Source: an uncultured bacterium
GTDB taxonomy: Bacteria > Chloroflexota > Anaerolineae > J036 > Brachytrichaceae
DNA: 35,413 bases
NCBI GenBank assembly: GCA_903921365.1
Contig: CAIXPS010000572.1
Location: 1-35,413 of the forward strand
Reading direction: 5' to 3'
In this document: piece after piece, positions 4,514 to 21,575 of the stretch
Layout of the letters: every line of letters begins with the position of its first letter
Numbering within the stretch: the stretch's first letter is position 1
Translations under genes and position numbers: made by a program
Notes under the pieces: generated by a model
Seen by the model: only the letters and a program-made list of their open reading frames with translations
What the model was told of the DNA's origin: nothing
Databases searched by the model: none

Positions 4514-5941
4514 TCAGTCCCTCCGCACCGTCTCAGTCACCGTGCCGCTCGGATCGACGAATTCGAGGATCATCGGCATCTGACCGAGCGCGTGGGTGGA
4601 ACAGCTCAGGCACGGGTCGTAGGCGCGCACGGCAGCTTCGACGCGGTTGAGTAGCCCTTCGCGGACGGTCTGCCCGTTGATATAGGTCTTGGCGACACTG
4701 TCGACCGCATTGCACATGGCCCAGTTGTTGTGGCCGGTGGACACGATCAGGTTCACCTTTTCGATCTGGCCGTTTTCCTTCACCCAGTAGTGATGGAACA
4801 ACGTCCCACGCGGCGCTTCGATCACGCCCACAGCCTCGCCGTGGAAATCGCGCTTCGTGTTCAGGATGTCGTTACCCAGGATATCCGGATCGTTCAGCAG
4901 CGCTTCGACGCGCTCAATGGCGAACAGCGTCTCGATCAGGCGCGCATAGTGATAATGCAGCGTGTTTTCGACCGGCTTGCCGGGGTTCAGCGCGCGGAAT
5001 ATCTTCAGTTCCTCATTCGCGATCGGTGTATCGATCTGGTCGCACAGGTTCAGGCGGCCCAGCGCCCCGACGCGATACACACCTCCGGGAAAGCCCATCT
5101 TCTTATAGTACGGGAACTTCAGGTATGACCAGTTCTCGACGTGCTCGGAGATATAGTCCAGATAGCGCGGCGCGGCGAACTGCTCCAGCAGGTTGCCCTT
5201 CTGGTCGATCAACCGGCAATCGCCCTGATATAGTTCCAGGCTGCCCTTCGGCGTCACCAACCCGAAGTAGCCGGTGGGGAACACGGCGAACTTGTCGATG
5301 TCCTCGCGGTTCTTCGCCGCCCAGTCCTTCATGATGGCAATACCGGCCTGGGTCGTCGCCATAGCCTCGGCCACACCGGCCAGGATGCCTTCGCGCTCCG
5401 ACGGTTGGAGCGCCTTGTTCACGCCGCCCGGAACGGCGAAGTTCGGATGAATGCGCCGCCCACCCAGCGTGTGGATGATCTCCTGCCCGAACTTGCGCAG
5501 GTTTACGGCCTTCAGCGCCAGCGCGGGGTTAGCCTGAATCAATCCGACAACGTTGCGAATCGCCGGATCCGCATCAAACCCCAACAGCAAATCGGGGCCG
5601 GCCAACTCGAAAAAGTGCATCCCGTGGCTCTGGATGATCTGGCCCATATGCATCAGTTCGCGCAGCAGATTCGCCGTTCGCGGAGGTTCCGCGCCGACAA
5701 TCTGATCGCACACTTTAGCCGACGCCAGGTGGTGGCTGACCGGGCAAATGCCGCAAATGCGCGGCGTGATGCTGGGCATCTCGAAGAACATGCGCCCTTC
5801 GCAGAACTTCTCGAAACCTCGGAATTCGTTGATATGCAGATAGGCGTGCTCGACGTTGCCATCCTCTTTCATGTGGATGGTCACCTTGGCATGCCCCTCA
5901 ATGCGTGTTACAGGTTCAATCGTGATCTTATGTGTTGCCAT
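4514..5941 (-). CDS. hoxH: [NiFe] hydrogenase large subunit, group 3 (HoxH/HydL type)
   Basis: A 475-residue catalytic subunit that makes or oxidises H2 at a Ni-Fe(CN)2CO centre. Both nickel-ligand motifs are intact. The L1 motif [11 protein letters not shown] carries Cys63 and Cys66, and the L2 motif DPCLSCSTH carries Cys444 and Cys447. After His450 there is a 25-residue tail, the usual maturation peptide removed by a specific endopeptidase; no such protease or hyp gene is in the window. The motif wording is that of cytosolic group 3 (NAD(P)-linked) enzymes, most like 3d or the HydABCSL bifurcating type; the subgroup cannot be settled by eye. No signal peptide or membrane segment is seen. 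It is the last gene before the terminator, 29 bp after hoxY. Confidence 0.96.
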
Positions 5942-5970: not shown

Positions 5971-6513
5971 CTAATGCCAGTGCAGCTTATCGCCCTTGAG
6001 TTCCGGAATTCGCCCTTGCCCCAACTCGCTCAGCACGTAGAAAATAACGTCGGCGTCGGGCGGGCAACCCGGCACATTCACATCCACTTTGACGATATCG
6101 CTGACTGCGCGAACCTCGGTGGGAATGCATAACTCCGGGTCGTTCGGCACATGCCCCTCGCCATCGGTGCTCTCGGTCTCCACATAGGCGCGCTTCAACG
6201 CGTCTTCCAGCTTGAAGAAGTTGCGCAAGGCCACCACACCGCCAAACACGGCGCAGTCACCCAGCGATACCAGGCACTTGCTGCGGCTGCGCATGCGGAG
6301 CGCCACTTCCTCGTTATAGGTATTGTTTACCGCGCCGGACAGGATTCCAACATCCACACCGCTTTCATCGGGCACTTTGAGGTCAGTGATCGGGGTGGAG
6401 CGAATATCCACCAGGTTGGCCACGGCGACGATACGCTCGTCCATATCGAGTAGCGACATCTCACAACCCGCGCAACCCGCTAGCCAGTCCATTGATACCT
6501 TTGGTTTAGCCAT
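5971..6513 (-). CDS. hoxY: [NiFe] hydrogenase small subunit (HoxY/HydS type)
   Basis: A 180-residue subunit that passes electrons between the Ni-Fe site and the diaphorase. It has the short group 3 form carrying only the proximal [4Fe-4S] cluster. The likely ligands are Cys14 and Cys17 (GCAGCEMS), Cys87 (SLGDC) and Cys150 (VPGCPPD). There is no Tat signal peptide and no C-terminal medial/distal cluster domain, so it is cytoplasmic. An AAGGAG site 7 bp before the ATG lies inside the end of the preceding NuoG/HoxU-like gene, whose stop is only 2 bp upstream, indicating coupled translation. It is followed by hoxH. Confidence 0.95.
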   Translation of the reverse strand: MAKPKVSMDWLAGCAGCEMSLLDMDERIVAVANLVDIRSTPITDLKVPDESGVDVGILSGAVNNTYNEEVALRMRSRSKCLVSLGDCAVFGGVVALRNFFKLEDALKRAYVETESTDGEGHVPNDPELCIPTEVRAVSDIVKVDVNVPGCPPDADVIFYVLSELGQGRIPELKGDKLHWH

Positions 6514-6515
6514 TA

Positions 6516-8318
6516 CTAAGCTCCTTCCTTGGGATTCCAGTTCCCATCCAACGTCGCGCCGACGCGCTCGGCCAGCGCTTCAAATACTTTTTCGTTCGAC
6601 CACACATTGACAGGGGCGTTGATGCCGCGATGTGCTTCCTGCCAGCGGCCTTCCAGGTTCAAATAATGACCCTCTTGTTCCGTCCACATCTCCACAGGCA
6701 ACACCACGTCGGCCATGGCGGTGACCTGTGACACATAACTCGCCTGCACCGCCACAAACGGCGCGCCTTCGATCTGCTGCGCCAGCGCGGGGGTGATCTG
6801 TGCATCGCCGAGCGCCACATACACGGCCTGGCGTCCCTTCGGCTCAAATGGCTTATCCAGCTTGTACATGGCTGCGGCCATGCTATTCGCCGCACCCTGC
6901 ACACTGATCAGTGTCGCATTGAGCGCAGTTGCCAGTTTCACCGCAGCGTCCCAGTACACGCTCTTTCCAACAACGATCACGGGCTTTGTCGCGCCTGCGA
7001 TCAGCTTGGCGATGGCGGGATCGGTCACAATGCCGGCCAGCGTTTGCGCTTCTGCGCCCTTCGGCGCAATCAACGCCTTGTCCGCGATATCGGTCATGCC
7101 GCTCCCGGCATCCGCGCTATCAATCACGATCAGCTTGGCGCCTTTCGGTAAGTTGCGCTTGATGAAGAATCCGGCAACTTGATGCTGTGTGATCAGATCC
7201 GCGCCCGCCACCAGCACACAATCGGCGGTTTTCAGCGCGTCGAGCATGCCGGGCGTAAACGGCGTCGCGGCCTGGGGTTCCAGGCTCGTAACCATCGGGC
7301 TGCCCAACTTCGCGCCAAACAACTGCTCAAAATCGTGCAACGCTTCAGCTGTCAACCGAGGCGATGTCACTGCAGCGATGCCGGCGCCGTTCTGTCCCGC
7401 GAGCGGCTTGAGCTTGTCAGCAATAGCGCCCAGCGCCTCGTCCCACGTCGCTGCCTTCAACGCGCCATCCTTGCGCACAAGAGGCGTGAGCAGGCGTTCG
7501 CGCGTTTCCTTCATTGGTGTAAATCGCCCGATCTGGCACAACAGCCCATCATTTACCGGCGCATCCCAGTCGCCTTCGATGCGCACCAGGCGGTTATCGC
7601 GCACGATCATCTCGACGCCGCAGCCCACACTGCAACCGGGGCATGTGGTCTTCACATGTGCCACATCCTTCTCGCGACCCTGAAACACGCCGGCACGGTC
7701 AATCAAGGCGCCGGTCGGGCATACTTGCACACACGTGCCGCAACTGATGCAGGTGCTTTCACCCAGTGGGGCGCCCAGGTCGGCGATGACCAGCGTGCTT
7801 GCGCCGCGCTCCTCCACGCCCAGCGTGAAGTTGCCAACCAACTCGCCGCATGCGCGGATGCAACGCCGGCACAGGATGCAGCGGTTATTGTCGAGGACGA
7901 AGTCTTCGTGCGAGGCATCCATCGGGAAGGGCTGCCAGTTCGGCTGGAGCGGCCAGTGCGTCATGCCCTCGCCGTAAGCGGAGTTCTGCAGTTCGCAGTC
8001 GCCCCCGCTGACCGGGCAGTACATGCAGAAGTGATTGCGCTCGCTGAAGATCAGCGTGAGCACAAACTTGCGCGCCTCGCGCACTTTGGGCGTATTCGTC
8101 AGCACCACCATATTGTTGCTCGCCGGCAATGTGCACGACGGCTGCAACGTGCGGGCGCCTTCCACTTCCACCAGGCACATCCGGCAACCGCCGTACGGCG
8201 CCAGTTCCTTGTGGTCGCACAGGGTGGGGATATCGACGCCGACTGACTGTGCCGCGCGCAAGACGGTCGTCCCATCAGGAACAGCGACCTCTTGTCCATC
8301 TATTTTGAGAGTTACCAT
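6516..8318 (-). CDS. NuoG/HoxU-like iron-sulfur subunit of the hydrogenase (HydA-type, no H-cluster domain)
   Basis: A 600-residue electron-wiring subunit. In order it has: a plant-type [2Fe-2S] domain (Cys34, 45, 48, 62); a His-Cys [4Fe-4S] site spaced as in HoxU (His96, Cys98, 101, 108); two ferredoxin [4Fe-4S] clusters (Cys147/150/153/157 and Cys190/193/196/200); and a molybdopterin-oxidoreductase-type [4Fe-4S] site (Cys226, 229, 233, 261). About 330 residues of a shortened MopB-like domain follow, which probably bind no cofactor, as in NuoG. The [FeFe] H-cluster motifs are absent. A good AAGGA site precedes the ATG. It should connect the NuoE/NuoF diaphorase to HoxY. It differs from standard ~240-residue HoxU by the long C-terminal half. 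Confidence 0.92.
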   Translation of the reverse strand: MVTLKIDGQEVAVPDGTTVLRAAQSVGVDIPTLCDHKELAPYGGCRMCLVEVEGARTLQPSCTLPASNNMVVLTNTPKVREARKFVLTLIFSERNHFCMYCPVSGGDCELQNSAYGEGMTHWPLQPNWQPFPMDASHEDFVLDNNRCILCRRCIRACGELVGNFTLGVEERGASTLVIADLGAPLGESTCISCGTCVQVCPTGALIDRAGVFQGREKDVAHVKTTCPGCSVGCGVEMIVRDNRLVRIEGDWDAPVNDGLLCQIGRFTPMKETRERLLTPLVRKDGALKAATWDEALGAIADKLKPLAGQNGAGIAAVTSPRLTAEALHDFEQLFGAKLGSPMVTSLEPQAATPFTPGMLDALKTADCVLVAGADLITQHQVAGFFIKRNLPKGAKLIVIDSADAGSGMTDIADKALIAPKGAEAQTLAGIVTDPAIAKLIAGATKPVIVVGKSVYWDAAVKLATALNATLISVQGAANSMAAAMYKLDKPFEPKGRQAVYVALGDAQITPALAQQIEGAPFVAVQASYVSQVTAMADVVLPVEMWTEQEGHYLNLEGRWQEAHRGINAPVNVWSNEKVFEALAERVGATLDGNWNPKEGA

Positions 8319-8389: not shown

Positions 8390-10063
8390 TCAGTGAACCA
8401 AAGCTGCAACGTTATGTTCTACATTTACATGCCGGTGGCGTCCGCGCATCGCGCATGCGCCCGCCGGGCATATCTTCAACTTGATATGGGCCTCAACCTC
8501 GGCCCGGAAATACTTCAACATATCGCGGATAGGCACCGCTGCCGTCTGACCCAAACCGCAATTGGAAAGCTGGGTCAACCCATCGGCGATAGTCTCAAGG
8601 TCTGCGAGATCATGCAGCGTGCCGATACCTTCCGAGAGATTGGTCAGCAGTTGATAAGCACGGTCAGTGCCGATACGGCACGGGCCGCACTTGCCACAGC
8701 TCTCGTTGCGGAAAAACTTCAACAGGACACGCGTCAGGTCAACCACGCAGGTATCGTCGTCGCAGATCAGCAGCGCACCCGAACCAAGCGACACGCCGGC
8801 TTTGTTGAACGAGTCAAAGTCCATCGGCGTATCCTGCAGGCTGGCCGGGATGATCGACCCGCTCGACCCGCCGGTCTGCGCCATTTTGAACCCTCTTCCA
8901 TCGTGCATGCCCTTGCCGTAAATCGTAATCACTTCGCGCAGGGTGATGCCCATGGGCACTTCGATCAAGCCGGTCATGTTGACATGTCCGAGGATCGTGT
9001 AGACCTTGGTGCCGGGGCTGCTGGGGGTGCCGAAGCCCTTATACCAGGCTGCCCCATGGCGCATGATGGCCGGCAGATTTGCCAGCGTCTCGACGTTGTT
9101 AATCAGCGTTGGTTTGCCCCACAATCCGTTCGTCGTAGGATAGGGTGGGCGCGCGCGCGGTTCGCCCCGGTTGCCCTCGATGGATTCGATCAGCGCCGTT
9201 TCTTCGCCGCAGATATACGCGCCCGCGCCGACATGGAGGTGAATGTCGAAACTGAAGCCGGTCCCGAAAATATCCCGGCCCAACAGTCCATATTCACGCG
9301 CCTGCGCGATGGCGGTGATGAGGCGCGCCTGCGCCAGCATGTATTCGCCGCGCACATAGATAAAGCCTTCGCTCGCGCCGACGGCATACGCGGCAATCGT
9401 CATCGCCTCGATCAGGCTGTGCGGGTCGCCTTCCAGAATCAGGCGGTCCTTGAATGTGCCCGGCTCGCTCTCGTCGGCGTTGCAGATCACATATTTGGGT
9501 GCGCCCGGTGCCTGCGCCACGGCCTTCAACTTGGCCCCAGTGGGGAATCCTGCGCCGCCGCGCCCGCGCAACCCCGACTTTGTGATCTCTGCGATGACAT
9601 CGACGGGCTTCATCTCAGTCATGCACTTGCCAAGCGCCTCATAGCCGTTATGACCGATATAGTCCTCGATATCCTCAGGGTCAATGACGCCAGCGCGCTC
9701 CATAACGATGCGCTGCTCGGCAGGCAGCGTGCCTTTGCGCGCCGAAATCCAGGCGATGCGCCCGGAGAGTTCACGCGCGGGCAACTGCAACCCGGCTGCG
9801 ATGCGCCCCTTATAGAGGTGCTCTTCGACTAGAAAATGGACATCGCCGGGCGTCACCGGCCCATACACGACGGCCTCCGGGTAGATGATCACCAGCGGCG
9901 CAGCGTCATGACGGCCAATATCAGAGACCATTGCCACGGCCACTTCATCGCTCAATCCAAACGCGGTGATTTCATCCTGCAGGCATTTATGCACTGCGAG
10001 GGCGCCTTTTTCTATGCTCTCGCGATCGCTGGAGACCAAAACCAAAGAGCGAACAGCTTTCAT
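8390..10063 (-). CDS. NuoF-like NAD(P)H/FMN subunit 2 (HoxF/HydB type, lacking the C-terminal ferredoxin domain)
   Basis: A 557-residue flavoprotein. The N-terminal ~100 residues are a degenerate thioredoxin-like domain with almost no cysteines. The FMN-binding GRGGAGFP is at about residue 166, an NAD-binding AYICGEETAL segment is at about 280, and the [4Fe-4S] motif ESCGKCGPC is at about 450 with the fourth Cys in SNCGLGQ at about 498. The tail keeps EAHIKLKICPAGAC, the motif that in bifurcating HydB/HndC-type proteins precedes two ferredoxin clusters, but the protein ends about 20 residues later and the ferredoxin domain is missing. A perfect AGGAGG site precedes the ATG, 12 bp after NuoE-2. 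It is most likely the diaphorase attached directly to the HoxYH unit. Confidence 0.93.
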   Translation of the reverse strand: MKAVRSLVLVSSDRESIEKGALAVHKCLQDEITAFGLSDEVAVAMVSDIGRHDAAPLVIIYPEAVVYGPVTPGDVHFLVEEHLYKGRIAAGLQLPARELSGRIAWISARKGTLPAEQRIVMERAGVIDPEDIEDYIGHNGYEALGKCMTEMKPVDVIAEITKSGLRGRGGAGFPTGAKLKAVAQAPGAPKYVICNADESEPGTFKDRLILEGDPHSLIEAMTIAAYAVGASEGFIYVRGEYMLAQARLITAIAQAREYGLLGRDIFGTGFSFDIHLHVGAGAYICGEETALIESIEGNRGEPRARPPYPTTNGLWGKPTLINNVETLANLPAIMRHGAAWYKGFGTPSSPGTKVYTILGHVNMTGLIEVPMGITLREVITIYGKGMHDGRGFKMAQTGGSSGSIIPASLQDTPMDFDSFNKAGVSLGSGALLICDDDTCVVDLTRVLLKFFRNESCGKCGPCRIGTDRAYQLLTNLSEGIGTLHDLADLETIADGLTQLSNCGLGQTAAVPIRDMLKYFRAEVEAHIKLKICPAGACAMRGRHRHVNVEHNVAALVH

Positions 10064-10075
10064 TGTGACCTCCTA

Positions 10076-10600
10076 TTACTCGTACCGTTCCAGTATCCCG
10101 TTCACCTGCTGCGGCGTGATATTGCCATAAATATCTTCGTCAACGGTGATGACCGGCCCGACCGCGCATACCCCCAGGCAACTGGTGGTGCGCAGGGTCC
10201 ACTTTCCATCCGCGCTAGTCTCACCCGATTCAAGCTTCAACGTATCCTGCAGCGCCGTCCACACTTCGCGCCCGCCCACTACGTGGCAGGGCGCACTCTC
10301 GCAAAACTGAATCAGATGCCGTCCGCGCGGCTTGGTGGACAACATCTGATAAAAACTTGCCACTGAGAACAACTGGCCGATTGGCGTATGCAACACATGG
10401 CTGACTTCTTTAAATGCTTCCGGCGGGATATACCCCAACGCATGGTTGATTTCCGTCAGAATCGGCACAAGGTCTTCGCGCGTTGCGCCACACTTTGCCA
10501 CCGCGGCTTCCACGACCTCACGAACGCGAGACTCAGACACTGTTGCGGATCTTTGATCAGTCTGTACCTCTACGATGCCTACGGCACTCATGGCAGTCAT
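10076..10600 (-). CDS. NuoE-like [2Fe-2S] subunit 2 (HoxE/HydC type)
   Basis: A 174-residue thioredoxin-fold ferredoxin of the NuoE (24-kDa) family. The four [2Fe-2S] ligands are Cys100 and Cys105 (CESAPC) and Cys141 and Cys145 (CLGVC). A helical N-terminal region with GATREDLVPILTEINHALGYIP is typical of HydC/NuoE. It pairs structurally with the NuoF-2 protein encoded 12 bp downstream. The first ATG is favoured by a GGTGGAG site about 8 bp upstream. It is the second NuoE gene of this cluster and differs clearly in sequence from NuoE-1, so the pair is not a recent duplication. Confidence 0.94.
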   Translation of the reverse strand: MTAMSAVGIVEVQTDQRSATVSESRVREVVEAAVAKCGATREDLVPILTEINHALGYIPPEAFKEVSHVLHTPIGQLFSVASFYQMLSTKPRGRHLIQFCESAPCHVVGGREVWTALQDTLKLESGETSADGKWTLRTTSCLGVCAVGPVITVDEDIYGNITPQQVNGILERYE

Positions 10601-10653: not shown

Positions 10654-12432
10654 CTAGTTAATGACAATCGCGTTAAAGTTGCACACCTGCATACAGATGC
10701 CGCAACGGATACACGTGTTCGCATCAATGACGTGCAGCTTGCGCCGCTCGCCGGTGATCGCACCGACCGGGCAGTTGCGCGCGCAAACGGTGCAGCCCGT
10801 GCATGCGTCAATGATATCGAACCGTATCAAGCCCTTGCACACCTTGGCCGGGCAACGCTTCTCGTAGATGTGCGCCTCGTACTCCTTGCGGAAGTGCTTG
10901 AGCGTGCTCTCTACGGGATTCGGCGCGCCCTGACCCAGGCCGCACAAACTGGTGGACTTGATCTGCCTGCACAGCATTTCAAGCGTCTCGATGTCGCCGT
11001 CCTTGCCGTCGCCCTTACAGATGCGCTGCAGGATTTCCAGCATGCGGCGCGTGCCCACGCGGCAGGGGGTGCACTTACCGCAGCTTTCATCCTGGATAAA
11101 CTCCATGAAGAAGCGCGCAATGTCCACCATGCAGGTGTCTTCATCCATGACGACCAACCCGCCCGATCCCATGATCGTGCCAGCGGCCGCGAGCGACTCA
11201 TAATCGATCGGGCGATCCAGGTACTCTTCGGGCAGACAACCGCCCATCGGCCCGCCAATCTGCACGGCCTTGAGTTTCTTGCCGTCTTTGATACCCTGCG
11301 CAATATCGTAGACGACCTCGCGCATGTTGATCCCCAGCGGAACTTCAATCAACCCGGTATGATTCACATCGCCGGCCAGCGCAAAGGTCTTTGTGCCCTT
11401 GCTCTTCTCGGTGCCCATGCTGGCGTACCACTGCGCGCCTCTCAGCATGATCTGCGGCACGTTGGCATATGTTTCCACGTTGTTGACGTTGGAGGGTTTG
11501 GCCCACAGACCGCTGACCGCGGGGAACGGCGGGCGCGGGCGCGGTTCGCCGCGCTTGCCTTCAATCGAAGCCATCAGGGCTGTCTCTTCGCCGCAGACAA
11601 ACGCGCCAGCGCCAATGCGCACCTCAAGGTCGAAGGAGAAGCCACTGCCCAGAATATCCTCGCCCAGCAATCCGAGCGCGCGCGCCTGTTGGATCGCGAT
11701 GTTCAGCGTGCGCACGGCCAGCGGGTACTCGGCGCGACAATAGATGTAACCGCGGCTGGAGCCGATGGCATAGGCGGCGATAATCATGCCCTCGACAACG
11801 GCATGCGGGTCGCCTTCGAGCACGCGCCGGTTCATGAACGCGCCGGGATCACCTTCGTCCGCGTTGCAGATGACGAATTTGGGAGTTGCCTTGGAAGCGC
11901 GACAGAACTGCCACTTCCGACCCGCCGGGAACCCGGCGCCGCCGCGTCCGCGCAGACCGGAGGCGAGCATCTCGTCGATCACTTTTTCAGGAGTGTAGGA
12001 CGCGAGCACTTTAGCGAGCGCCTCGTAACCATCCTCAGCGATATAGTCCTCGATATTCTCCGGGTCGATCTTGCCGCAGTTGCGCAATACGACGCGCACT
12101 TCCTTGGAAGTCGGCGCGCCCAACTCTTCATCCTTGACTTCAACCTTGGTCAAAAGGAATTTCTTCGCCACGCGGCCTTTGAGGAAATGCTCTTCAACCA
12201 GGAAGGGGATGTCGTCGACGCTCATCCCGACATAATGCACACCATCGGGGTACACCATCATCTCAGGGCCATGGCTGCAGTCGCCGATTCGCGGTGTTTC
12301 GAGCACCTGGACTTCGTCGATCAGCCCCTGGGCGACCAATTCGTCCTGCAATGCATCTTCGATATCATGCGCGCCCTTGCCCAGACATTCAGGGTCGACG
12401 CAGATCAATATGTGAGTGCGATAGTACTTCAT
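10654..12432 (-). CDS. NuoF-like NAD(P)H/FMN subunit 1 with C-terminal 2x[4Fe-4S] domain (HydB/HndC type)
   Basis: A 592-residue flavoprotein with the full domain order of HydB/HndC subunits. The N-terminal thioredoxin-like domain keeps Cys11 and Cys16 and a CSHGPEMMVYPDGVHY segment. The FMN motif GRGGAGFPAG is at about residue 160, an AFVCGEETAL segment at about 282, and [4Fe-4S] ESCGKCTPC at about 449 with Cys in SLCGLGQ at about 496. An EAHIYEKRCPAKVC motif follows, then two ferredoxin clusters, CTGCTVCARNC and CIRCGICMQVC, at about residues 540-590. That C-terminal ferredoxin domain is characteristic of electron-bifurcating Bfu-type enzymes and contrasts with NuoF-2. Complex I NuoF lacks it. 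It follows the HndB-like gene by 17 bp. Confidence 0.94.
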   Translation of the reverse strand: MKYYRTHILICVDPECLGKGAHDIEDALQDELVAQGLIDEVQVLETPRIGDCSHGPEMMVYPDGVHYVGMSVDDIPFLVEEHFLKGRVAKKFLLTKVEVKDEELGAPTSKEVRVVLRNCGKIDPENIEDYIAEDGYEALAKVLASYTPEKVIDEMLASGLRGRGGAGFPAGRKWQFCRASKATPKFVICNADEGDPGAFMNRRVLEGDPHAVVEGMIIAAYAIGSSRGYIYCRAEYPLAVRTLNIAIQQARALGLLGEDILGSGFSFDLEVRIGAGAFVCGEETALMASIEGKRGEPRPRPPFPAVSGLWAKPSNVNNVETYANVPQIMLRGAQWYASMGTEKSKGTKTFALAGDVNHTGLIEVPLGINMREVVYDIAQGIKDGKKLKAVQIGGPMGGCLPEEYLDRPIDYESLAAAGTIMGSGGLVVMDEDTCMVDIARFFMEFIQDESCGKCTPCRVGTRRMLEILQRICKGDGKDGDIETLEMLCRQIKSTSLCGLGQGAPNPVESTLKHFRKEYEAHIYEKRCPAKVCKGLIRFDIIDACTGCTVCARNCPVGAITGERRKLHVIDANTCIRCGICMQVCNFNAIVIN

Positions 12433-12449
12433 CGATACGTATTCCAGTA

Positions 12450-12821
12450 TTATTTGGTCGGGATCACGAGCTCGGCCACGACGTGGCCGCCGACCACATG
12501 CTCTTTCATGATGCGTTTCGCCTGATCAACGGACACTTTGCCGTAGGTCACCTTCGCGGCGCCGCCAACTTCCACCTGGACGATGGGTTCCAGTTCACAC
12601 AGCCCCATGCAGCCGGTCTGTTTGACGACCACGCCGCTTAGACCGTCGGCCTCGATCGTGTCGAGAATAGCGCGCATGGTCTCACGCGCGCCGGCGGCAA
12701 TGCCGCATGTGCCCATGGCAACGGTCACCTGGGCGGTTCCGGCGGTCGTTTTTGCATTGCGCTTCGCGATCGCGTCTTCCTTCAATCTCTTCAACTCATC
12801 GAGCGATTTGACTGCTGGCAT
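12450..12821 (-). CDS. HndB-like thioredoxin-fold [2Fe-2S] ferredoxin
   Basis: A 123-residue protein with the pattern GTCGIAAGARETM (Cys39) and TGCMGLCELEP (Cys71, Cys75), matching the HndB family of small thioredoxin-like ferredoxins encoded between NuoE- and NuoF-type hydrogenase genes. Only three conserved cysteines are visible, so cluster binding may need another ligand or a partner. The start ATG at 12821 has a perfect GGAGG about 6 bp upstream; the 18-codon longer reading lacks one. It lies between the small HATPase and NuoF-1, the gene order of hnd/hyd operons. A role as an electron-transfer partner or assembly subunit of NuoF-1 is inferred. Confidence 0.85.
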   Translation of the reverse strand: MPAVKSLDELKRLKEDAIAKRNAKTTAGTAQVTVAMGTCGIAAGARETMRAILDTIEADGLSGVVVKQTGCMGLCELEPIVQVEVGGAAKVTYGKVSVDQAKRIMKEHVVGGHVVAELVIPTK

Positions 12822-12871
12822 AGCTTCCTCCAACGTTTGGTGATTGCAAATTGCGACCGGCAGGTCACCCG

Positions 12872-12899
12872 CCAATCGCTAATCTCCAATCTCTAATCC
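12872..12899. repeat. Heptamer repeat (GATTGGA/GATTAGA type), copy 1
   Basis: Read on the minus strand, four degenerate 7-mers (GATTAGA, GATTGGA, GATTAGC, GATTGGC) overlap the HATPase stop codon. The 14-mer AGATTGGAGATTAG is shared exactly with 21481-21494 on the plus strand. This suggests a dispersed low-complexity intergenic element of unknown role. Confidence 0.6.
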
Positions 12900-13441
12900 T
12901 TGATCTCACTATTTTTGATGCCTTCCTGCAACGTTTCGCGCAGGTAGGTCAAAATGGCGGGCTCGCTCAGCGAGACATCGCCCAGTTCATTCTTGATTGG
13001 CGCGTCGTCAAACAGGAACTCGTTTCCGTTGGCGCGGTAACGGAAAATCCAATGGATTTGCGGCCACGCCACCAGCAACTCGAACCACGTTCCCGCCAGG
13101 TCGCCCAGCGGCATGCGGTCGATATGGCTGCGCTGGAACTCTGCCTCCAGGCGCGTGCCTTTGCCCGGCGCCGAGTTGATGCGCAGATAGCCGTTGCACG
13201 CTTCTGCCGCCGCCTTGAGCAAGGGAATCCCCAGCCCGACTTTGCGCGTGGTGCGGCTGGTGACGAACGGGTCGGTCACGCGCGCGACCATGTCCTCGTC
13301 CATCCCTTTGCCGTTGTCTTCGACGCTCATCTTCAGGCGATCCTTCTTCGAATCCTCGTCAACGGCAATCGTGATATCACCGGCGTCAGCTGCGACGCTA
13401 TTCTCAGCAATATCAAGCAAATGCAGCGCAAGTTCCCTCAT
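12893..13441 (-). CDS. Small stand-alone HATPase (histidine-kinase-type ATP-binding protein) of hydrogenase cluster
   Basis: A 182-residue protein made of a GHKL ATP-binding domain. The N-box DIAENSVAA is at residues 10-18, the G1 motif EDNGKGMD at 41-48 and the G2 motif KVGLGIPL at 67-74. The remaining ~80 residues are not recognised. There is no phospho-accepting His/dimerisation domain and no sensor or membrane segment, so it is not a complete kinase. Stand-alone HATPases of this kind are known beside multimeric [FeFe] hydrogenase genes, where their function is unproven. It sits between NuoE-1 and the HndB-like gene, 12 bp after NuoE-1, and its stop overlaps the heptamer repeat. Confidence 0.85.
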   Translation of the reverse strand: MRELALHLLDIAENSVAADAGDITIAVDEDSKKDRLKMSVEDNGKGMDEDMVARVTDPFVTSRTTRKVGLGIPLLKAAAEACNGYLRINSAPGKGTRLEAEFQRSHIDRMPLGDLAGTWFELLVAWPQIHWIFRYRANGNEFLFDDAPIKNELGDVSLSEPAILTYLRETLQEGIKNSEIKD

Positions 13442-13453
13442 ACGATCCGCGCT

Positions 13454-13960
13454 CTAGCTCTGCGCCTTGCGCAAAATCTGCGTCAACTTGGCGGGGCGCA
13501 CACGGCCGTGCATCTCCTCGTCCACGACAACGACCGGCGCCTGGCTGCATGCGCCGACGCATCGGCATATCTCCACGGTCGTCATACCGTCTTTCGTGGT
13601 ATGCCCGGGTTCCACGCCGAACGTCTGCTTGGCTTTCTCGATCAACTGCTCGGCGCCACCCACGTAGCACGCTGTGCCCATACAGAACTTGACGGTATGC
13701 TTGCCGCGCGCCTGGGTGGTGAAAAACGAATAGAAGGACACCACGCCGTGCACCTGCTGCAACGGCACGCGCATCTTCTTCGATACATACGCCTGCATTG
13801 AGGGTGAAACAAACCCGATCTTGCTCTGTAGTTCGTTCAGTATGACCATAACGGAACCTGGCAGATTCCGGTTTTCTTCAAGGATCTGATCAATCACCGC
13901 GCGCTTCTCGGGGATAGCGACCGGATCCGTTGTTGGGATATTTTCTAACACGTTTTGCAT
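13454..13960 (-). CDS. NuoE-like [2Fe-2S] subunit 1 (HydC/HndA type)
   Basis: A 168-residue NuoE-family thioredoxin-like ferredoxin. The [2Fe-2S] ligands are Cys93 and Cys98 (CMGTAC) and Cys134 and Cys138 (CVGAC). The N-terminal helical region has QSKIGFVSPSMQAYVSKKM. ATG 13960 is chosen because GGGAG stands about 5 bp upstream; a TTG four codons earlier is less likely. It is the first gene of the downstream half of the hydrogenase cluster, preceded by a 155-bp gap carrying a candidate operator and -10 element. It probably partners NuoF-1, which carries the matching HydB-type domain set. Confidence 0.93.
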   Translation of the reverse strand: MQNVLENIPTTDPVAIPEKRAVIDQILEENRNLPGSVMVILNELQSKIGFVSPSMQAYVSKKMRVPLQQVHGVVSFYSFFTTQARGKHTVKFCMGTACYVGGAEQLIEKAKQTFGVEPGHTTKDGMTTVEICRCVGACSQAPVVVVDEEMHGRVRPAKLTQILRKAQS

Positions 13961-14033
13961 TCTGGCTCCCAAACTTCAAAGTGAGCACCGACTTTCGATT
14001 GGCTTCATTGGCCTGTATTTCGTTGCACTTACT

Positions 14034-14051
14034 TTGTGATTATTTTCACGA
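14034..14051. promoter_or_regulatory. TTGTGA-N6-TCACGA palindrome upstream of nuoE-1 (Rex- or CRP/FNR-like operator)
   Basis: Half-sites TTGTGA (14034-14039) and TCACGA (14046-14051) are separated by 6 bp, with one mismatch to a perfect palindrome. A TAAAAT -10-like hexamer on the minus strand (14060-14055) lies just upstream, placing the operator near the start of transcription, where a repressor would act. Two more TCACGA half-sites stand at 14067-14072 and 14094-14099. The nuoE-1 start is 73 bp downstream. The -35 is poor. The motif matches the Rex (NADH-sensing) and CRP/FNR consensus families; which regulator binds is unknown. Confidence 0.5.
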
Positions 14052-14115
14052 TCCATTTTAGCACTTTCACGAAAATGCGCTAACTGCTAAATGTCACGAT
14101 ATCATGCGCAATACG

Positions 14116-14868
14116 TCACACAGTCCGCAGAGAACGGAACGACATACTGCGGCCGTGCTGTTGTGCCAGCGCCATTTTCAACTCGGCGACGGTCGGCGCC
14201 TCAACCTTGAAGACATTCCTGCCGAGAAATTCATCCAACCGGTGCACGTCGCCGCTCTGGATCAGCGGATACCCGCGCAACTGAGGAAACTTCACCGGCG
14301 CGTCGGCAGGGCTGAGATGGCGCGATATCTCCAGCGCATCGAAGTGCACGTCAGTGGGCACCAGCCCCAGGTTGGTCAGCAAACTGAAGGAGTTACGGTT
14401 CACGTGCGCCGGGATGACCATACCACCCAGTGCGCGCACCCCTTCCACTGCCTCGTGCAGCGACAGGTTCGCTGATGTGATCAACAACTGCGACTCCGTG
14501 CGGATATAGTCGCCGTTCTCATCCACCACGAACTGATCGCCATAATATTCAGGGTTGTTGACCAGCGCCGGCATGTATACATCAACAGTCGCCTGCCAGT
14601 GTTCCAACTGCTCGACGGTGTCAAAGATGCACAGCATGTGCACTTCCTCGCGCGTCTGCAACTCCATCCCAGCCAGCACGACTAACTCGGCGCCTGCGGC
14701 GGCTTTCTGAACTGCGCGCGCGTTGGCGCTCGCATTGTGATCCGTGATAGCGATCAACCCGATGCCCTGATCGAGCGCCTCCTGCACAATCAAAGGCGGG
14801 AGCATCTCGACCTCTGCACAGGGCGAAAGCACCGTGTGCACATGCAGCTCGGCGATATACGACTTCAT
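14116..14868 (-). CDS. PHP-domain metal-dependent phosphoesterase-like protein
   Basis: A 250-residue PHP-family protein. It has the expected metal ligands: His9 and His11 (ELHVHT), Asp43-His44 (ITDHN), Glu69 (GMELQ) and His77 (EVHML), then PAHVNR and the C-terminal SGDVHRLDE. The fold is a distorted TIM barrel binding several divalent metals; members cleave phosphoesters such as small-molecule phosphates or nucleotide messengers. PHP proteins occur next to multimeric [FeFe] hydrogenase genes together with DRTGG and HATPase proteins, as here. This supports a signalling or regulatory role, although the substrate is not established. It starts 7 bp after the DRTGG-type gene and is followed by a 155-bp regulatory gap. 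Confidence 0.9.
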   Translation of the reverse strand: MKSYIAELHVHTVLSPCAEVEMLPPLIVQEALDQGIGLIAITDHNASANARAVQKAAAGAELVVLAGMELQTREEVHMLCIFDTVEQLEHWQATVDVYMPALVNNPEYYGDQFVVDENGDYIRTESQLLITSANLSLHEAVEGVRALGGMVIPAHVNRNSFSLLTNLGLVPTDVHFDALEISRHLSPADAPVKFPQLRGYPLIQSGDVHRLDEFLGRNVFKVEAPTVAELKMALAQQHGRSMSFRSLRTV

Positions 14869-14875
14869 CGCGTCA

Positions 14876-15223
14876 CTATTCGCTTCTCAACCCCATTTCC
14901 CACAGCTTCCCCACTACATAAAAGATGGGCTTCTGCGTGAAGAACATGTTGATCTCCTCCTCGTTCGCCTTGGCGATGCTGGCCGGGTCGGGCATGGCGC
15001 CTTCGGTGATAATGACTGCGCTCAGATCGAGCAATGCGGCCACTGCGACGATGTTGGCGTGCGACTGCAATGTCACCCACACCGAATGTTTCTGCGCGCC
15101 CGCCATGACACAGCTCAACAAATCCGACGCATAACCTGAAGCGGGAACGACAGCGTCAAAGTCGCGCTTCACCGTTAACACCTTGAGTTCCAGTTGATCG
15201 ATGATGTCTTGTAGTGTTGGCAT
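14876..15223 (-). CDS. Small DRTGG-domain-like protein, copy 2
   Basis: A 115-residue single-domain protein (MPTLQDIIDQLELKVLTV...). It carries the ASDLLSCVMAGAQKHSVWVTLQSHANIVAVAALLDLSAVIITEG arrangement characteristic of stand-alone DRTGG-type proteins of hydrogenase clusters. The literal DRTGG tetrapeptide context is not visible, and the assignment rests on overall pattern and on similarity in layout to the gene at 16242. It has no catalytic motif or membrane segment. It lies 7 bp behind the CBS-HATPase gene and 7 bp ahead of the PHP gene, so it is co-transcribed. A ligand-binding regulatory role is inferred; the family's function is unknown. Confidence 0.75.
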   Translation of the reverse strand: MPTLQDIIDQLELKVLTVKRDFDAVVPASGYASDLLSCVMAGAQKHSVWVTLQSHANIVAVAALLDLSAVIITEGAMPDPASIAKANEEEINMFFTQKPIFYVVGKLWEMGLRSE

Positions 15224-15230
15224 ATATTCC

Positions 15231-16226
15231 TTATGACTTGTGAGTTGTATCGCCCAGTTGTTCCTGCGACTGCATATTGATGCGCATCTCTAACCGCGTG
15301 CCGCGCCCCGGCGTGGAGTCCAGATACATGTCATCCACGCAGCGGTGGATGTTCTTCAGCCCCATCCCCGCGCCAAAGCCAAGCTCGCGGATCGAGTCGG
15401 GCGCGGTGGAGTAGCCGGGAGTCATCGCCAGTGCGATGTCCGCAATGCCGGGGCCGTCGTCAAGCGTCTCCATTAATATCTGATTCGGTTCGATCTCGAT
15501 GCGAATATTGCCCCCGCGCGTGGCGTGAATGATGATGTTCATCTCCGCTTCGTAGATCGCGATGCCACAGCGGCGCGCAATCTGCGGGCTGGCGCCCAGA
15601 CGTAACAAGGCCTTCTTGATATGGCTGGAGGCGTTGCCGCCGAGTGCGAACTCGCCATGCTTCACCTTGTAACGCAATGTCAAGCTGGTGCGGTCGGAGA
15701 TGATATCCTCGAACAGGTGACGCGCGCGATACTTGCGGACTTCCTCTTCCTGGTAGTCGTATTGCAGAGAGCGCATCACCCCGCTGGTGATATCCCCTTT
15801 GGTGATGATGCCAGCCAGCTTGTTGTTTTCGTCGACGACGGGCAGACGGCCGATGTGGCGCTGATCGAACACCTTCAGCGCTTCGATCAACGGGCTGGCG
15901 GCCTTCACGGTCATCACCTGGCGCGTCATATACTCGCCAACGGGGGCCTGGATGTTGCTCTCGCGCAACGCGCGGATAAGGTCTTCAAGGCTGACGATGC
16001 CGATGAGATCGCCGTTCGATACGACAGGCGCGCCGGAGATGCGCGCATGGCGGAAGGTCTCCATCACGTCGCCCATCTTTGTGCCGGGAGCGATTGTCTT
16101 CACATTGCGCGACATGACCTCGCCGATGGTCAGTTCATATGCCAATTCTTCGACGCGGCTGATCAGATTCGCAGCGCCGTCTGTTATGACACGATCCTTC
16201 CGCACCGATTCTTCTGAGTTTTCCAC
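15231..16226 (-). CDS. CBS-domain pair fused to an RsbW/SpoIIAB-like HATPase (cytosolic sensor)
   Basis: A 331-residue protein. Two CBS domains occupy about residues 33-90 (VMSRNVKTIAP...GIVSLEDLI) and 97-155 (YMTRQVMTV...GIITKGDIT). A linker follows, then a GHKL ATPase at about 190-320 with YEAEMNIIIHA (N-box), DDGPGI (G1) and GFGAGMGLKNI (G2). CBS pairs bind adenine nucleotides or related ligands, so this looks like an energy-state sensor controlling an anti-sigma-type serine kinase or ATPase. It starts at GTG with GAGGAG about 11 bp upstream and begins 15 bp after the DRTGG-type gene. No sigma factor or anti-anti-sigma partner is present in the window. Such proteins occur in hydrogenase signalling clusters; their target is unproven. 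Confidence 0.88.
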   Translation of the reverse strand: MENSEESVRKDRVITDGAANLISRVEELAYELTIGEVMSRNVKTIAPGTKMGDVMETFRHARISGAPVVSNGDLIGIVSLEDLIRALRESNIQAPVGEYMTRQVMTVKAASPLIEALKVFDQRHIGRLPVVDENNKLAGIITKGDITSGVMRSLQYDYQEEEVRKYRARHLFEDIISDRTSLTLRYKVKHGEFALGGNASSHIKKALLRLGASPQIARRCGIAIYEAEMNIIIHATRGGNIRIEIEPNQILMETLDDGPGIADIALAMTPGYSTAPDSIRELGFGAGMGLKNIHRCVDDMYLDSTPGRGTRLEMRINMQSQEQLGDTTHKS

Positions 16227-16241
16227 GTCTTTGTGGTCTCC

Positions 16242-16604
16242 TCATCCCTCATCATACGCATGCTCCAGGCTTTGCAGCCCGGCGCAGTGCAGACGGCCGC
16301 ACACCTCGAACATGCCGTGCACCGTGCTGATCAGCGGGATTTTCTCGCGGTTGGCCAGTTGCACGATGTCGTCGTTCGGCTGCTTGTCGCGCACAAAGAT
16401 GATCGCGGCGACGTCGGCCATCATCGCCGTGCGGACAACCTGCATCGTGCACAAACCGGTCAGCAGCACAGCATCGGGTTGAGAATAGGCCAGGACGTCG
16501 CTCATCAGATCGGCGCCGCAACCGCCCAGCACCTCACAGTTGAGGTTGACGCCTTTCGTCAGCACCACGCCGTCAATGAGCTTGATAAGCTCGGTGAGTT
16601 TCAT
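16242..16604 (-). CDS. Small DRTGG-domain-like protein, copy 1
   Basis: A 120-residue single-domain protein. It carries the GGCGADLMSDVLAYSQPDAVLLTG segment, a TMQVVRTAMMADVAAIIFV core and the C-terminal IPLISTVHGMFEVCGRL typical of DRTGG-type proteins found beside PHP and HATPase genes in hydrogenase loci. Several cysteines are present, but no recognised metal site. It is the first gene of the four-gene signalling block, separated from the upstream DHODH-like gene by a structured 109-bp gap. The ribosome site is weak. The copy at 14876 shares its layout but is divergent. Function is unknown; a small-molecule-binding or regulatory role is inferred. Confidence 0.8.
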   Translation of the reverse strand: MKLTELIKLIDGVVLTKGVNLNCEVLGGCGADLMSDVLAYSQPDAVLLTGLCTMQVVRTAMMADVAAIIFVRDKQPNDDIVQLANREKIPLISTVHGMFEVCGRLHCAGLQSLEHAYDEG

Positions 16605-16612
16605 GTGCTTTA

Positions 16613-16680
16613 TCTATAAAACAACAAAGGTCGAGACACTTGTGGGTAAACTGCACCCCGCCACATGACGCCTCGACCTT
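16613..16680 (-). terminator. Possible terminator or attenuator between DHODH-like and DRTGG genes
   Basis: A 9-bp inverted repeat, AAGGTCGAG (16627-16635) and CTCGACCTT (16672-16680), encloses an inner 5-bp stem (TGTGG 16641-16645, CCACA 16661-16665). Read on the minus strand the outer stem is followed by TGTTGTTTTAT (16626-16616), a U-rich tract. The loop is long for a canonical terminator, so partial termination or attenuation is the cautious reading. Confidence 0.45.
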
Positions 16681-16713
16681 CACGATACCGATCAGGTTGC
16701 CGCTGACCGACCC

Positions 16714-17727
16714 TTACATCAGGACGCCGGTCGGGTCAGGGCTCCATGACAACAGATTTTTCATGTAATTGGCGCGCTCAATCATCGCCGGCTGTGCCAG
16801 GTTGACCTGGCTAAGGCTGCCGATCATCTGTGAGACCGACTCGTACTCGCGCTCGATCATCCACGACTTGACGCCTTCCAGCACCTGGTTGATGCGTCCC
16901 AGACCGTGCTCCAGCAGTTCGGAAGCCATCATTGTGACCTTCGCGCCGGCCATCAGCCCCTTCAGCACATCCTCGGTGCGGTGCACGCCGGTGGTAATCG
17001 CGAAGTCCACGGGCACGCGTCCATGCAGAATGGCCGTCCAACGCAACGGCAGCCGCAGCTCGTTCGAGTTGCTCAGCACCAGGTGCGGCACCACTTCCAG
17101 ATGTTCCAGATCGAAGTCCGGCTGGTAGAAACGGTTGAACAAGACGAGTGCGTCGGCGCCCTGCGCGGCCAGCCGATAGGCCATATTTGCGGTGGAACTG
17201 AAGAATGGGCTGAGTTTGACCGCGACCGGGATGGTCACCGTCTTCTTCACATCGCGCACCACGTCGAGATACATCTGCTCGACCTCCGCGCCCGTGCGCA
17301 ACAGATCGGTGGCGATGTAATACAGGTTAAGCTCAATCGCATCAGCGCCAGCTTCCTGAATCTTATGCGCATATTCTATCCAGCCGCCCGTGGACACGCC
17401 GTTCAAACTGCCGATGATCGGTATGCTCGTCGCGGCTTTGGCTTTGCTGATCAGATTCAGATATTCATCGGGCCCGACGTTGTAATGCGCCAAATCGGGA
17501 TAGTAGCTGGTGGCTTCTGCAAAGCTCTCCGACCCGTAGCTGAGATAGTGGTCGAGCACGCGGCTCTCCCACTCGATCTGCTCCTCAAACAGCGAATACA
17601 TCACGACTGCGGGCGCGCCCGCGTCTTCCATCTTGCGAATGCCATCCAGGTTTTTAGACAGCGGCGACGCTGAAGGCACAATCGGGTGCTTCAGCTTGAG
17701 TCCCATATAAGTAGTTGATAAGTCCAT
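16714..17727 (-). CDS. Dihydroorotate dehydrogenase-like protein (PFOR-associated)
   Basis: A 337-residue FMN-type TIM-barrel protein of the dihydroorotate dehydrogenase superfamily ([20 protein letters not shown]...). The segments [36 protein letters not shown] (lysine strand), [13 protein letters not shown] and [21 protein letters not shown] fit flavin and phosphate binding. The protein belongs to a subfamily commonly encoded next to PFOR and not to pyrimidine genes; the catalytic Cys/Ser loop of true PyrD is not recognisable. GGAG about 8 bp upstream supports the start. It follows nifJ after 62 bp, nearly all a 40-bp palindrome. A redox function coupled to PFOR or ferredoxin is inferred, with no established reaction. 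Confidence 0.88.
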
Positions 17728-17743
17728 TGCTGCTTCTCCGGTT

Positions 17744-17783
17744 ATGCGGACGGTTGCTGTGCCGGCACAGCAACCGTCCGCAT
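17744..17783. repeat. Perfect 40-bp palindrome between nifJ and the DHODH-like gene
   Basis: Two 20-bp arms meet without a spacer: atgcggacggttgctgtgcc (17744-17763) and its exact complement (17764-17783). It fills most of the 62-bp gap. No U-tract follows on the minus strand (AACCGGAG comes next), so a simple intrinsic terminator is unlikely. An RNA hairpin that stabilises the PFOR mRNA or limits read-through, or a palindromic mobile element, are alternatives. Confidence 0.9.
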
Positions 17784-17789
17784 GAATGA

Positions 17790-20700: not shown

Positions 20701-21341
20701 ACTGGGCGGTCGGGCGTGAGTGCGCGCGCGCGATGCGCCTGCACCAGGTCGTCAGTGACCATCGCCTTCATGTCGTCGTCACTGAGAAATTCGATCTTGG
20801 TCACTTCCGCTGAGGAGCGGAAACCGTCGAACACATGCAGAAACGGCACGCGGGATTCGAGCGTGGCGGCGCGGGAGACCAGCGCCAGATCCATGATCTC
20901 CTGCCCGGAGTTAGAGAACAGCATGGCCCAACCCGTCGAGCGGGTGGCCATCACGTCGCTGTGATCGCCGAAGATCGACAGCGCCTGCACCGCGAGAGCG
21001 CGGGCAGCGATGTGAAACACCGTGCTCGTCAACTCACCCGCGATCTTGTACATGTTGGGGATCATCAGCAGCAAGCCCTGGCTGGCTGTGAATGTCGTGG
21101 CCAGCGCGCCCGCCTGCAATGCGCCGTGGATTGCGCCTGCGGCGCCGCCCTCAGACTGCATTTCCTTCACGACGGGCACAGAGCCCCACATGTTCTTCTT
21201 TCCCTCAGCCATCCACTGATCGGCGTATTCGCCCATGGTGGAGGAAGGGGTGATGGGATATATAGCAATAACTTCGTTGGTTTTATAAGCAACGTAGGCC
21301 GCAGCCTCGTTGCCCTCTATGGTTTCAAGAGGTCGATTCAT
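17790..21341 (-). CDS. nifJ: Pyruvate:ferredoxin (flavodoxin) oxidoreductase, single-chain
   Basis: A 1183-residue fused PFOR that oxidises pyruvate with CoA to acetyl-CoA and CO2 and reduces ferredoxin. The domain order is complete: the N-terminal pyrimidine-binding domain ([24 protein letters not shown]), the transketolase-C-like domain, the gamma domain ([13 protein letters not shown]), two [4Fe-4S] ferredoxin motifs at about residues 690 and 745 (CIQCGKC, CTGCALC), the proximal cluster Cys in CSGCGETP at about 820, and the thiamine-diphosphate motif [12 protein letters not shown] at about 975 with [21 protein letters not shown] 21341 is preferred over the adjacent GTG 21344 because AGGAG lies 7 bp before it. 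It heads the cluster, behind a promoter and operator region. Ferredoxin produced here is the natural electron source for the downstream hydrogenase. Confidence 0.97.
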
Positions 21342-21365
21342 CACGCGCTCCTATGAAATAACTTT

Positions 21366-21395
21366 CTTATACCTGAATTATCGACCGATTGTCGA
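21366..21395 (-). promoter_or_regulatory. nifJ: Candidate sigma70-type promoter of nifJ
   Basis: On the minus strand, TCGACA (21395-21390) and TATAAG (21371-21366) are separated by 18 bp. Each matches consensus at five of six positions. Transcription would start about 15-20 bp before the nifJ ATG region. Confidence 0.5.
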
Positions 21396-21426
21396 TTTAG
21401 CAAAGTCACGTTTGGTTGTGATACAG

Positions 21427-21462
21427 GGTGACTATTATCACGCATTGTGAAATAATTCACAT
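21427..21462. promoter_or_regulatory. Tandem TGTGA-N6-TCACA operators upstream of nifJ
   Basis: Site A at 21445-21462 reads TTGTGAAATAATTCACAT, an almost perfect match to the Rex consensus and an exact core match to TGTGA-N6-TCACA (CRP/FNR family). Site B at 21427-21442 is GGTGA-CTATTA-TCACG, centred 19 bp away, about two helical turns. Both lie upstream of the proposed nifJ -35, at about -75 and -94, which suits an activator better than a repressor. The divergent vapB promoter region is about 110 bp away and could also be affected. Confidence 0.55.
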
Positions 21463-21479
21463 GTGACAACGTGGCGAAG

Positions 21480-21508
21480 GAGATTGGAGATTAGAGAGTG
21501 GTGATTGG
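21480..21508. repeat. Heptamer repeat (GATTGGA/GATTAGA type), copy 2
   Basis: The plus strand carries GGAGATTGGAGATTAG and then GTGATTGG. The 14-mer AGATTGGAGATTAG at 21481-21494 is identical to the minus strand of 12892-12879. It lies in the 234-bp gap between nifJ and vapB, next to the possible vapB -10 element TATACT at 21531-21536. Confidence 0.6.
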
Positions 21509-21575
21509 TTATATATCTGGCGGGATACGTTATACTGATTCGAGGAAATGTATAACATAAACGAGGCGATTACAA

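Follow-up and report, generated by a model that had tools for sequence, protein, structure and literature searches.

What do signalling genes do inside a [NiFe] hydrogenase operon? The question is raised by a 35,413-nucleotide stretch of DNA (hereafter, the window; contig CAIXPS010000572.1) from an uncultured bacterium of the Chloroflexota family Brachytrichaceae, whose assembly (G000; 6.88 Mb, 603 contigs) is 96.9% complete. Five genes are at issue: those encoding two DRTGG proteins (DRTGG1 and DRTGG2), a protein that joins a CBS pair to an ATPase domain (CBS-HATPase), a PHP-family protein, and a small HATPase. We find that this cassette is not bound to one kind of hydrogenase. Rather, the evidence largely supports the view that it follows the shared NuoE/HydD/NuoF NADH/ferredoxin module. 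We think it fairly probable that the five genes constitute a discrete adenine-nucleotide-gated kinase/phosphatase cassette that regulates electron-bifurcating NAD/ferredoxin enzymes of the Bfu family by reversible phosphorylation. The genes of the cassette and of the adjoining module are the following.

16242..16604, minus strand: DRTGG1, a 120-residue DRTGG-domain protein (PF07085, E 3.9e-7)
15231..16226, minus strand: CBS-HATPase, a CBS pair joined to an ATPase domain of SpoIIAB/RsbW fold, candidate Ser/Thr kinase (PF00571 twice, and PF02518)
14876..15223, minus strand: DRTGG2, a 115-residue DRTGG-fold protein (AlphaFold2 and Foldseek)
14116..14868, minus strand: PHP-family phosphoesterase (PF02811)
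13454..13972, minus strand: NuoE1, HydC-like 2Fe-2S subunit (PF01257, E 2e-44; HoxE/NuoE models)
12893..13441, minus strand: small GHKL ATPase (the small HATPase), between NuoE/hydC and hydD (PF02518, E 2.8e-17, and PF13589 only)
12450..12875, minus strand: HydD-like thioredoxin-fold 2Fe-2S protein (PF01257 just under the cut-off; 2Fe-2S ferredoxin models; Cys57, Cys89, Cys93)
10654..12432, minus strand: NuoF1, or HydB/BfuB, flavin mononucleotide (FMN)/NADH subunit with a C-terminal 4Fe-4S domain (PF01512, PF10589, Fer4)

All five signalling genes are intact open reading frames (ORFs) on the minus strand, inside a compact operon. From DRTGG1 to NuoF1 the intergenic gaps are mostly 7-17 bases, the sole exception being the 143 bases between PHP and NuoE1. 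The full minus-strand order, from 21344 to 4514, is PFOR, DHOD-like, DRTGG1, CBS-HATPase, DRTGG2, PHP, NuoE1, small HATPase, HydD-like 2Fe-2S protein, NuoF1, NuoE2, NuoF2, NuoG, HoxY, HoxH. An earlier note on this DNA had set the five genes, at 12893-16604, between PFOR and the hydrogenase subunits. The genes are all present as ORFs (four recognized by Pfam, DRTGG2 by its fold), and their placement requires correction. Specifically, NuoE1 (13454-13972) lies within that interval, and the neighbours of the small HATPase are NuoE1 and HydD, not PHP. Nor does PFOR flank the cassette, as a DHOD-like gene intervenes.

Partners of the cassette across phyla

A scan of genome contigs returned at least 568 relatives, from which we retained and mapped 80 loci spanning many phyla. 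Among the mapped loci, this gene order is shared across many phyla. Of the 46 loci flanked by 7 kb or more on each side, 38 have NuoE/NuoF within 9 kb, where chance would produce such proximity in an estimated few per cent of loci, given the few NuoF genes in a genome of about 3.5 Mb. The recurring order and this count together argue that the association is not due to chance. The remaining well-flanked loci are one with only a group-3b-like [NiFe] hydrogenase and seven with neither. Those seven are Spirochaete/Thermotogae relatives, and all 14 such genomes tested encode an [FeFe] hydrogenase elsewhere. In L180, L184, and L188, the small HATPase and HydD reside inside the remote [FeFe] operon, with the small HATPase between NuoE and HydD.

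The catalytic partner varies widely. It is a [NiFe] hydrogenase in some mapped loci and an [FeFe] hydrogenase in others (L029 and L091, and divergently in L087, L103, and L106). It is NuoG fused to HdrA, with HdrBC/MvhD, in L058, L044, and L079; a GltD-NuoG-like fusion, as in the Stn transhydrogenase (StnC-like), in L072; and a formate-dehydrogenase-like subunit in L085. Finally, complex I subunits are the partners in L074 (NuoABCD) and L066 (NuoD), and no [FeFe] hydrogenase was found in the genomes of these two loci. The genome G216 separates the two halves of the enzyme altogether: the cassette and NuoEF are on one contig and NuoG-HoxYH is on another, both contigs being long. This arrangement supports the earlier claim that the cassette is conserved with the diaphorase rather than with the H2 site. 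Adjacency to NuoE/HydD/NuoF across such varied partners, combined with G216, thus largely supports the idea that the cassette serves the flavin module. Of the earlier note's idea that it regulates that module, one part holds, namely that the association is with the NuoE/HydD/NuoF side and not with the H2 site, even in loci that have no hydrogenase. Two amendments are needed: the cassette is optional, not obligatory, for the flavin module, and HydD is its likelier point of contact.

Gene fusions are rare. A PHP-HATPase fusion in L059 is the only clear one, and it links PHP with the HATPase; no DRTGG-CBS fusion exists among the mapped loci.

Enzyme type and [FeFe] hydrogenases

The remaining genes of the operon, together with the gene that separates PFOR from the cassette, are these.

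10076..10600, minus strand: NuoE2, second NuoE (NuoE models)
8390..10063, minus strand: NuoF2, second NuoF, lacking the 4Fe-4S extension at the C-terminus (49% identity to NuoF1, over residues 1-533 only)
6516..8318, minus strand: NuoG/HydA-like Fe-S subunit without an H-cluster domain (TIGR01973; PF02906 absent from the genome)
5971..6513, minus strand: [NiFe] hydrogenase small subunit, HoxY/HydS (ORF flanked by NuoG and HoxH, an arrangement shared by relatives)
4514..5941, minus strand: [NiFe] hydrogenase large subunit, HoxH/HydL (best PDB match 7T2R_D)
16714..17727, minus strand: DHOD-like gene (separates PFOR from the cassette)

By best match, the enzyme is a NiFe-HydABCSL-type hydrogenase of the Bfu (HydABC) family, for which electron bifurcation is predicted. 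The closest PDB entry to NuoF1 is 7T2R_B, HydB of the Acetomicrobium mobile NiFe-HydABCSL (E 1e-245, residues 1-589), and the closest to HoxH is 7T2R_D, the large subunit of the same enzyme (E 2.7e-175). NuoF1 possesses both PF01512 and two C-terminal Fer4 domains, that is, the FMN domain and 4Fe-4S extension of a HydB. Within the same family, the NuoF proteins of ordinary Hox operons have no C-terminal 4Fe-4S extension, and their matches stop near residue 523. NiFe small and large subunits stand beside HydABC, and HydA lacks an H-cluster (7T2R_D match; PF02906 absent). The second NuoE2-NuoF2 pair (8390-10600), which follows NuoF1, is retained in many Anaerolineae relatives (L018-L022, L024, L031, L033, L040, L043, L061), which suggests that such hydrogenases may carry two NADH modules.

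The earlier note had called the five genes typical of [FeFe] loci and had reported no H-cluster protein. The second statement extends to the whole genome: PF02906, the H-cluster family, has 0 matches there, and the Thermotoga maritima positive control was matched. A nearby or remote [FeFe] hydrogenase is thereby rejected as the explanation for the cassette. The first statement fails in the Chloroflexota. Across 301 genomes of this phylum, CBS-HATPase occurs in 15 and an [FeFe] hydrogenase in 13, and only two (G081 and G089) have both, so 13 of the 15 CBS-HATPase genomes lack any [FeFe] hydrogenase. The label "[FeFe]-typical" is misleading for these genes. Each of the 13 genomes whose HoxH is closest (61-100% identity) is among the 15 that have CBS-HATPase. 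CBS-HATPase is missing from three genomes whose HoxH is at 56-57% identity and from the ordinary Hox clade, and two members of the same family with ordinary Hox operons (G037, G152) have no cassette. A profile labelled one ORF in L142 as CBS-HATPase, with the rest of the cassette missing; a CBS-HATPase search of its genome (G096) was negative, so we take the ORF to be another CBS or HATPase protein. We also note three NiFe-HydABCSL-like operons with a longer NuoF (about 1030-1046 residues) and no cassette (L146, L147, and L148, in G194, G162, and G082, respectively).

Regarding the surroundings, PFOR and the DHOD-like gene (16714-21344) precede the cassette here and in none of the mapped relatives; thus, this linkage looks lineage-specific. 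Beyond PFOR, two adjacent plus-strand ORFs of 83 and 143 residues (21576-22233) resemble, by eye, an AbrB-type antitoxin and a PIN-domain toxin. A promoter/terminator scan of 12400-22000 gave no excess over chance. PHP, HATPase, and CBS domains occur in defence genes; PADLOC matched none of the five cassette genes, and an antiphage role is rejected on that basis.

Folds, co-evolution, and a proposed switch

The AlphaFold2 model of CBS-HATPase (predicted local distance difference test score, pLDDT, 87.8) contains two recognizable parts. Residues 180-320 adopt the SpoIIAB fold (1TIL, Z 19.2, root-mean-square deviation 1.8 over 135 residues; RsbW 6M36, Z 15.8), and residues 31-155 match CBS proteins bound to AMP, ADP, or ATP (Z 16-17 for the AMP/ADP-bound ones). 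An acidic residue, three further positions, and Asn form the N-box pattern of SpoIIAB-type kinases. CBS-HATPase possesses this N-box (E226 and N230, both invariant) along with the glycine boxes, D256, G258, G260, and G283-G289 being likewise invariant. Each CBS has the ribose-binding Ser/Thr-x-x-Asp motif: S79-x2-D82 (at least 90% conserved) and T142-x2-D145 (T142 at least 90%; D145 invariant in a 15-sequence set). Conservation of these pairs fits the predicted sensing of adenine nucleotides by the CBS pair.

Both DRTGG proteins resemble one region of a known enzyme. The DRTGG1 alignment best matches the regulatory region of CBS-pyrophosphatase (CBS-PPase; 3L2B/3L31) and has invariant D32, S35, and T49. 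DRTGG2 has no Pfam or NCBIfam match; its AlphaFold2 model (pLDDT 97.3) has as its best Foldseek match 2IOJ, annotated "Pfam DRTGG" (E 1.7e-6), followed by 3L2B (E 8e-6) and 3L31, with 1KO7 also matched. By this model, DRTGG2 has the DRTGG fold. An Asp and a Ser occupy the corresponding place in both alignments (D32/S35 and D34/S37), at the start of a helix in the DRTGG2 model. Their conservation makes the Ser a candidate phosphate acceptor. The PHP protein has a complete metal site (H9, H11, D43, H44, E69, H77, H155, D207, H209), invariant in 36 sequences. Beside its HxH metal motif is an invariant Cys17 (SPC motif), possibly a redox-sensitive or metal-ligand residue. Invariant in the small HATPase are D10 and N14 of the N-box, D42, G44, G46, G69, G71, and the C-terminal D108. 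Pfam detects no HisKA/DHp domain in the small HATPase (HATPase domains only) or in CBS-HATPase (CBS and HATPase), so neither has the makeup of a histidine kinase.

Co-evolution offers a separate view. Pairwise protein distances within 43 loci were compared by Mantel-type tests, whose p-values are indicative only, as the loci are related by descent. CBS-HATPase, PHP, and the small HATPase form one block (rho 0.75-0.82; 0.82 between CBS-HATPase and PHP, 0.75 between CBS-HATPase and the small HATPase), and NuoE forms a second with NuoF (rho 0.70). HydD correlates with both (rho 0.49 with the HATPase, 0.56 with NuoF). In partial Mantel tests, HydD remains tied to the HATPase given NuoF (r 0.42, p 0.001) and to NuoF given the HATPase (r 0.51, p 0.001), and nothing is left between the HATPase and NuoF given HydD (r -0.01, p 0.55). 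We infer that the cassette is inherited largely as a unit, with HydD as its tie to the enzyme; the likely contact between the two is HydD and not NuoE/NuoF.

The notion is as follows. The CBS pair would bind adenine nucleotides (AMP/ADP against ATP or Ap4A) and gate the fused SpoIIAB-type ATPase domain. That domain would in turn phosphorylate a partner Ser/Thr, the first candidates being DRTGG1 and DRTGG2 with their invariant Ser after a conserved Asp. The PHP protein would strip the phosphate. The state of the cassette would reach the enzyme by way of HydD and the small GHKL ATPase, whose genes lie between hydC and hydB, and the flavin module would shift between active and restrained forms. 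If so, exchange among H2, NADH, and ferredoxin would track energy charge. In favour of such gating, CBS-PPase, which has two CBS domains and one DRTGG domain, loses activity with AMP/ADP and gains it with ATP/Ap4A through its CBS domains (PMC11172384). A broader version is tentative, and we would sooner wager against it than for it: one portable energy-charge gate may act via HydD on the FMN-based bifurcating module, plugged into both hydrogenase metal types, transhydrogenases, Hdr-type complexes, formate dehydrogenase, and a complex I operon.

Several observations weigh against a regulatory switch of this kind. The correlation between the two blocks, cassette genes versus NuoE/NuoF, is only about 0.3, and direct co-evolution of CBS-HATPase with NuoF found no support in a simple mirror-tree comparison (rho 0.2-0.3). 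Eleven complete cassette loci have HydD, DRTGG, and an adjoining small HATPase, and 20 other Chloroflexota NuoEF loci have none of these; the 20 were hand-picked, not random, and the Fisher test on them takes no account of relatedness. In L027, L064, and L070, DRTGG1-CBS-HATPase is paired with a group-3b-like [NiFe] hydrogenase and no NuoEF. There, a reduced cassette lacking PHP and DRTGG2 precedes the 4Fe-4S beta, FAD/NAD gamma, small, and large subunit genes. In CBS-PPase, the authors of the study hold, the DRTGG domain contributes little to regulation (PMC11172384). Finally, Cys57, Cys89, and Cys93 of HydD are lost together, with the gene retained, in 12 of 55 loci (L017, L019, L021, L022, L032, L034, L035, L036, L041, L043, L047, L081), implying a cluster-free HydD. 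A redox role for HydD consequently cannot be general, which weakens its candidacy as a general redox sensor; its retention despite the loss fits an adaptor better.

Assembly or repair is the strongest competing account, and we regard it as unlikely. Here, the two GHKL ATPases would be ATP-driven chaperones, akin to Hsp90 or MutL, working with HydD and PHP to insert Fe-S clusters or FMN into NuoE/NuoF, and CBS and DRTGG would only tune the process to energy state. The position of HydD between hydC and hydB, its co-evolution with NuoF, and the small HATPase's lack of HisKA suit this account, as does the assumption of Feng et al. that HydD, HydP, and HisK of the A. mobile operon, none of which is in the purified enzyme, serve maturation and/or regulation (PMC8880783). 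However, T. maritima HydABC produced in E. coli had its iron content in order and, artificially matured, was highly active (PMC7064455). Moreover, many NuoEF loci do without the cassette, and a SpoIIAB-fold domain joined to a CBS sensor is the architecture of a regulator.

Transcriptional partner switching is less probable still. CBS-HATPase would then be an anti-sigma/Ser kinase controlling operon expression, with DRTGG proteins in place of anti-anti-sigma factors. Its closest solved fold is indeed SpoIIAB complexed with its antagonist, followed by RsbW, and it matches TIGR01925 (anti-sigma F). Furthermore, in six loci (L079, L085, L087, L091, L103, L106) the cassette has a gene for a Rex-like redox repressor immediately upstream or in its vicinity. 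Nonetheless, no sigma factor or STAS-type antagonist is among the recurrent neighbours (the genomes themselves were not searched for such partners), and the HATPase and HydD genes interrupt the run of enzyme-subunit genes, a position that suggests action on the enzyme itself. That the genes are functionless leftovers of an ancestral [FeFe] locus whose catalytic subunit was replaced by a [NiFe] one is very improbable: fermentative bacteria do have histidine/serine kinase genes between their sensory and bifurcating [FeFe] hydrogenases (PMC3561251), and the cassette adjoins [FeFe] partners in the loci given above, but the residues for catalysis and ligand binding are conserved even between distant sequences, the cassette also accompanies complex I and enzymes of the Hdr- and Stn-like kinds, and only 2 of the 15 cassette-bearing Chloroflexota have any [FeFe] hydrogenase.

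To our knowledge, how FMN-based bifurcating enzymes avoid wasteful NADH/ferredoxin/H2 cycling is not settled. If a single phosphorylation cassette that reads adenine nucleotides does control many of them, anaerobic electron flow would be regulated by a shared switch open to test, and anyone using these enzymes heterologously for H2 or fuel would have to include or remove it on purpose. The genomic result shows where to look: the link between cassette and enzyme runs through HydD.

Relation to known systems

We found no description of the full cassette in the full-text literature on hydrogenases and bifurcating enzymes, a coverage outside which most subscription papers fall. A 2025 neighbourhood study of [NiFe] hydrogenases gives CBS and HATPase families only as counts, and CBS genes are not mentioned in the main text of the A. 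mobile enzyme paper (PMC8880783) or of the Bfu family survey (PMC9304861).

Partial likenesses exist. Sensory [FeFe] hydrogenase clusters upstream of bifurcating [FeFe] hydrogenases (PMC3561251) likewise place a kinase gene near a HydABC-type operon, whereas the window and the genome lack an H-cluster sensor protein. The anti-sigma Ser kinases SpoIIAB and RsbW share the fold of CBS-HATPase residues 180-320 and its invariant N-box Glu and Asn; CBS-HATPase differs in its fusion to a CBS pair. The CBS-DRTGG region of the Clostridium perfringens family II pyrophosphatase (3L2B/3L31), the best or near-best match of both DRTGG proteins, also unites a CBS pair with DRTGG modules. In the cassette, however, these are separate polypeptides, the output is a kinase-fold domain, and Pfam finds no DHH domain in any of the proteins. 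The Stn transhydrogenase and Nuo-Bfu complexes (PMC7483475, PMC9304861) have the BfuBC flavin module in common, and the cassette adjoins such architectures in L072 and in L066/L074; their catalytic partner differs, and those operons carry no hydrogenase.

The nearest relative is the A. mobile NiFe-HydABCSL operon (PMC8880783, PMC9304861), whose HydB and large subunit are the nearest solved structures to NuoF1 and HoxH. It carries HydD, HydP, and HisK genes, whose products are absent from the purified complex. There is thus precedent for a signalling gene within a bifurcating [NiFe] cluster. We initially read HydP as a PHP protein and dropped that reading, as its identity could not be settled from the text. 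Unlike the A. mobile operon, the window additionally has DRTGG1, CBS-HATPase, DRTGG2, PHP, and a second NuoE/NuoF pair.

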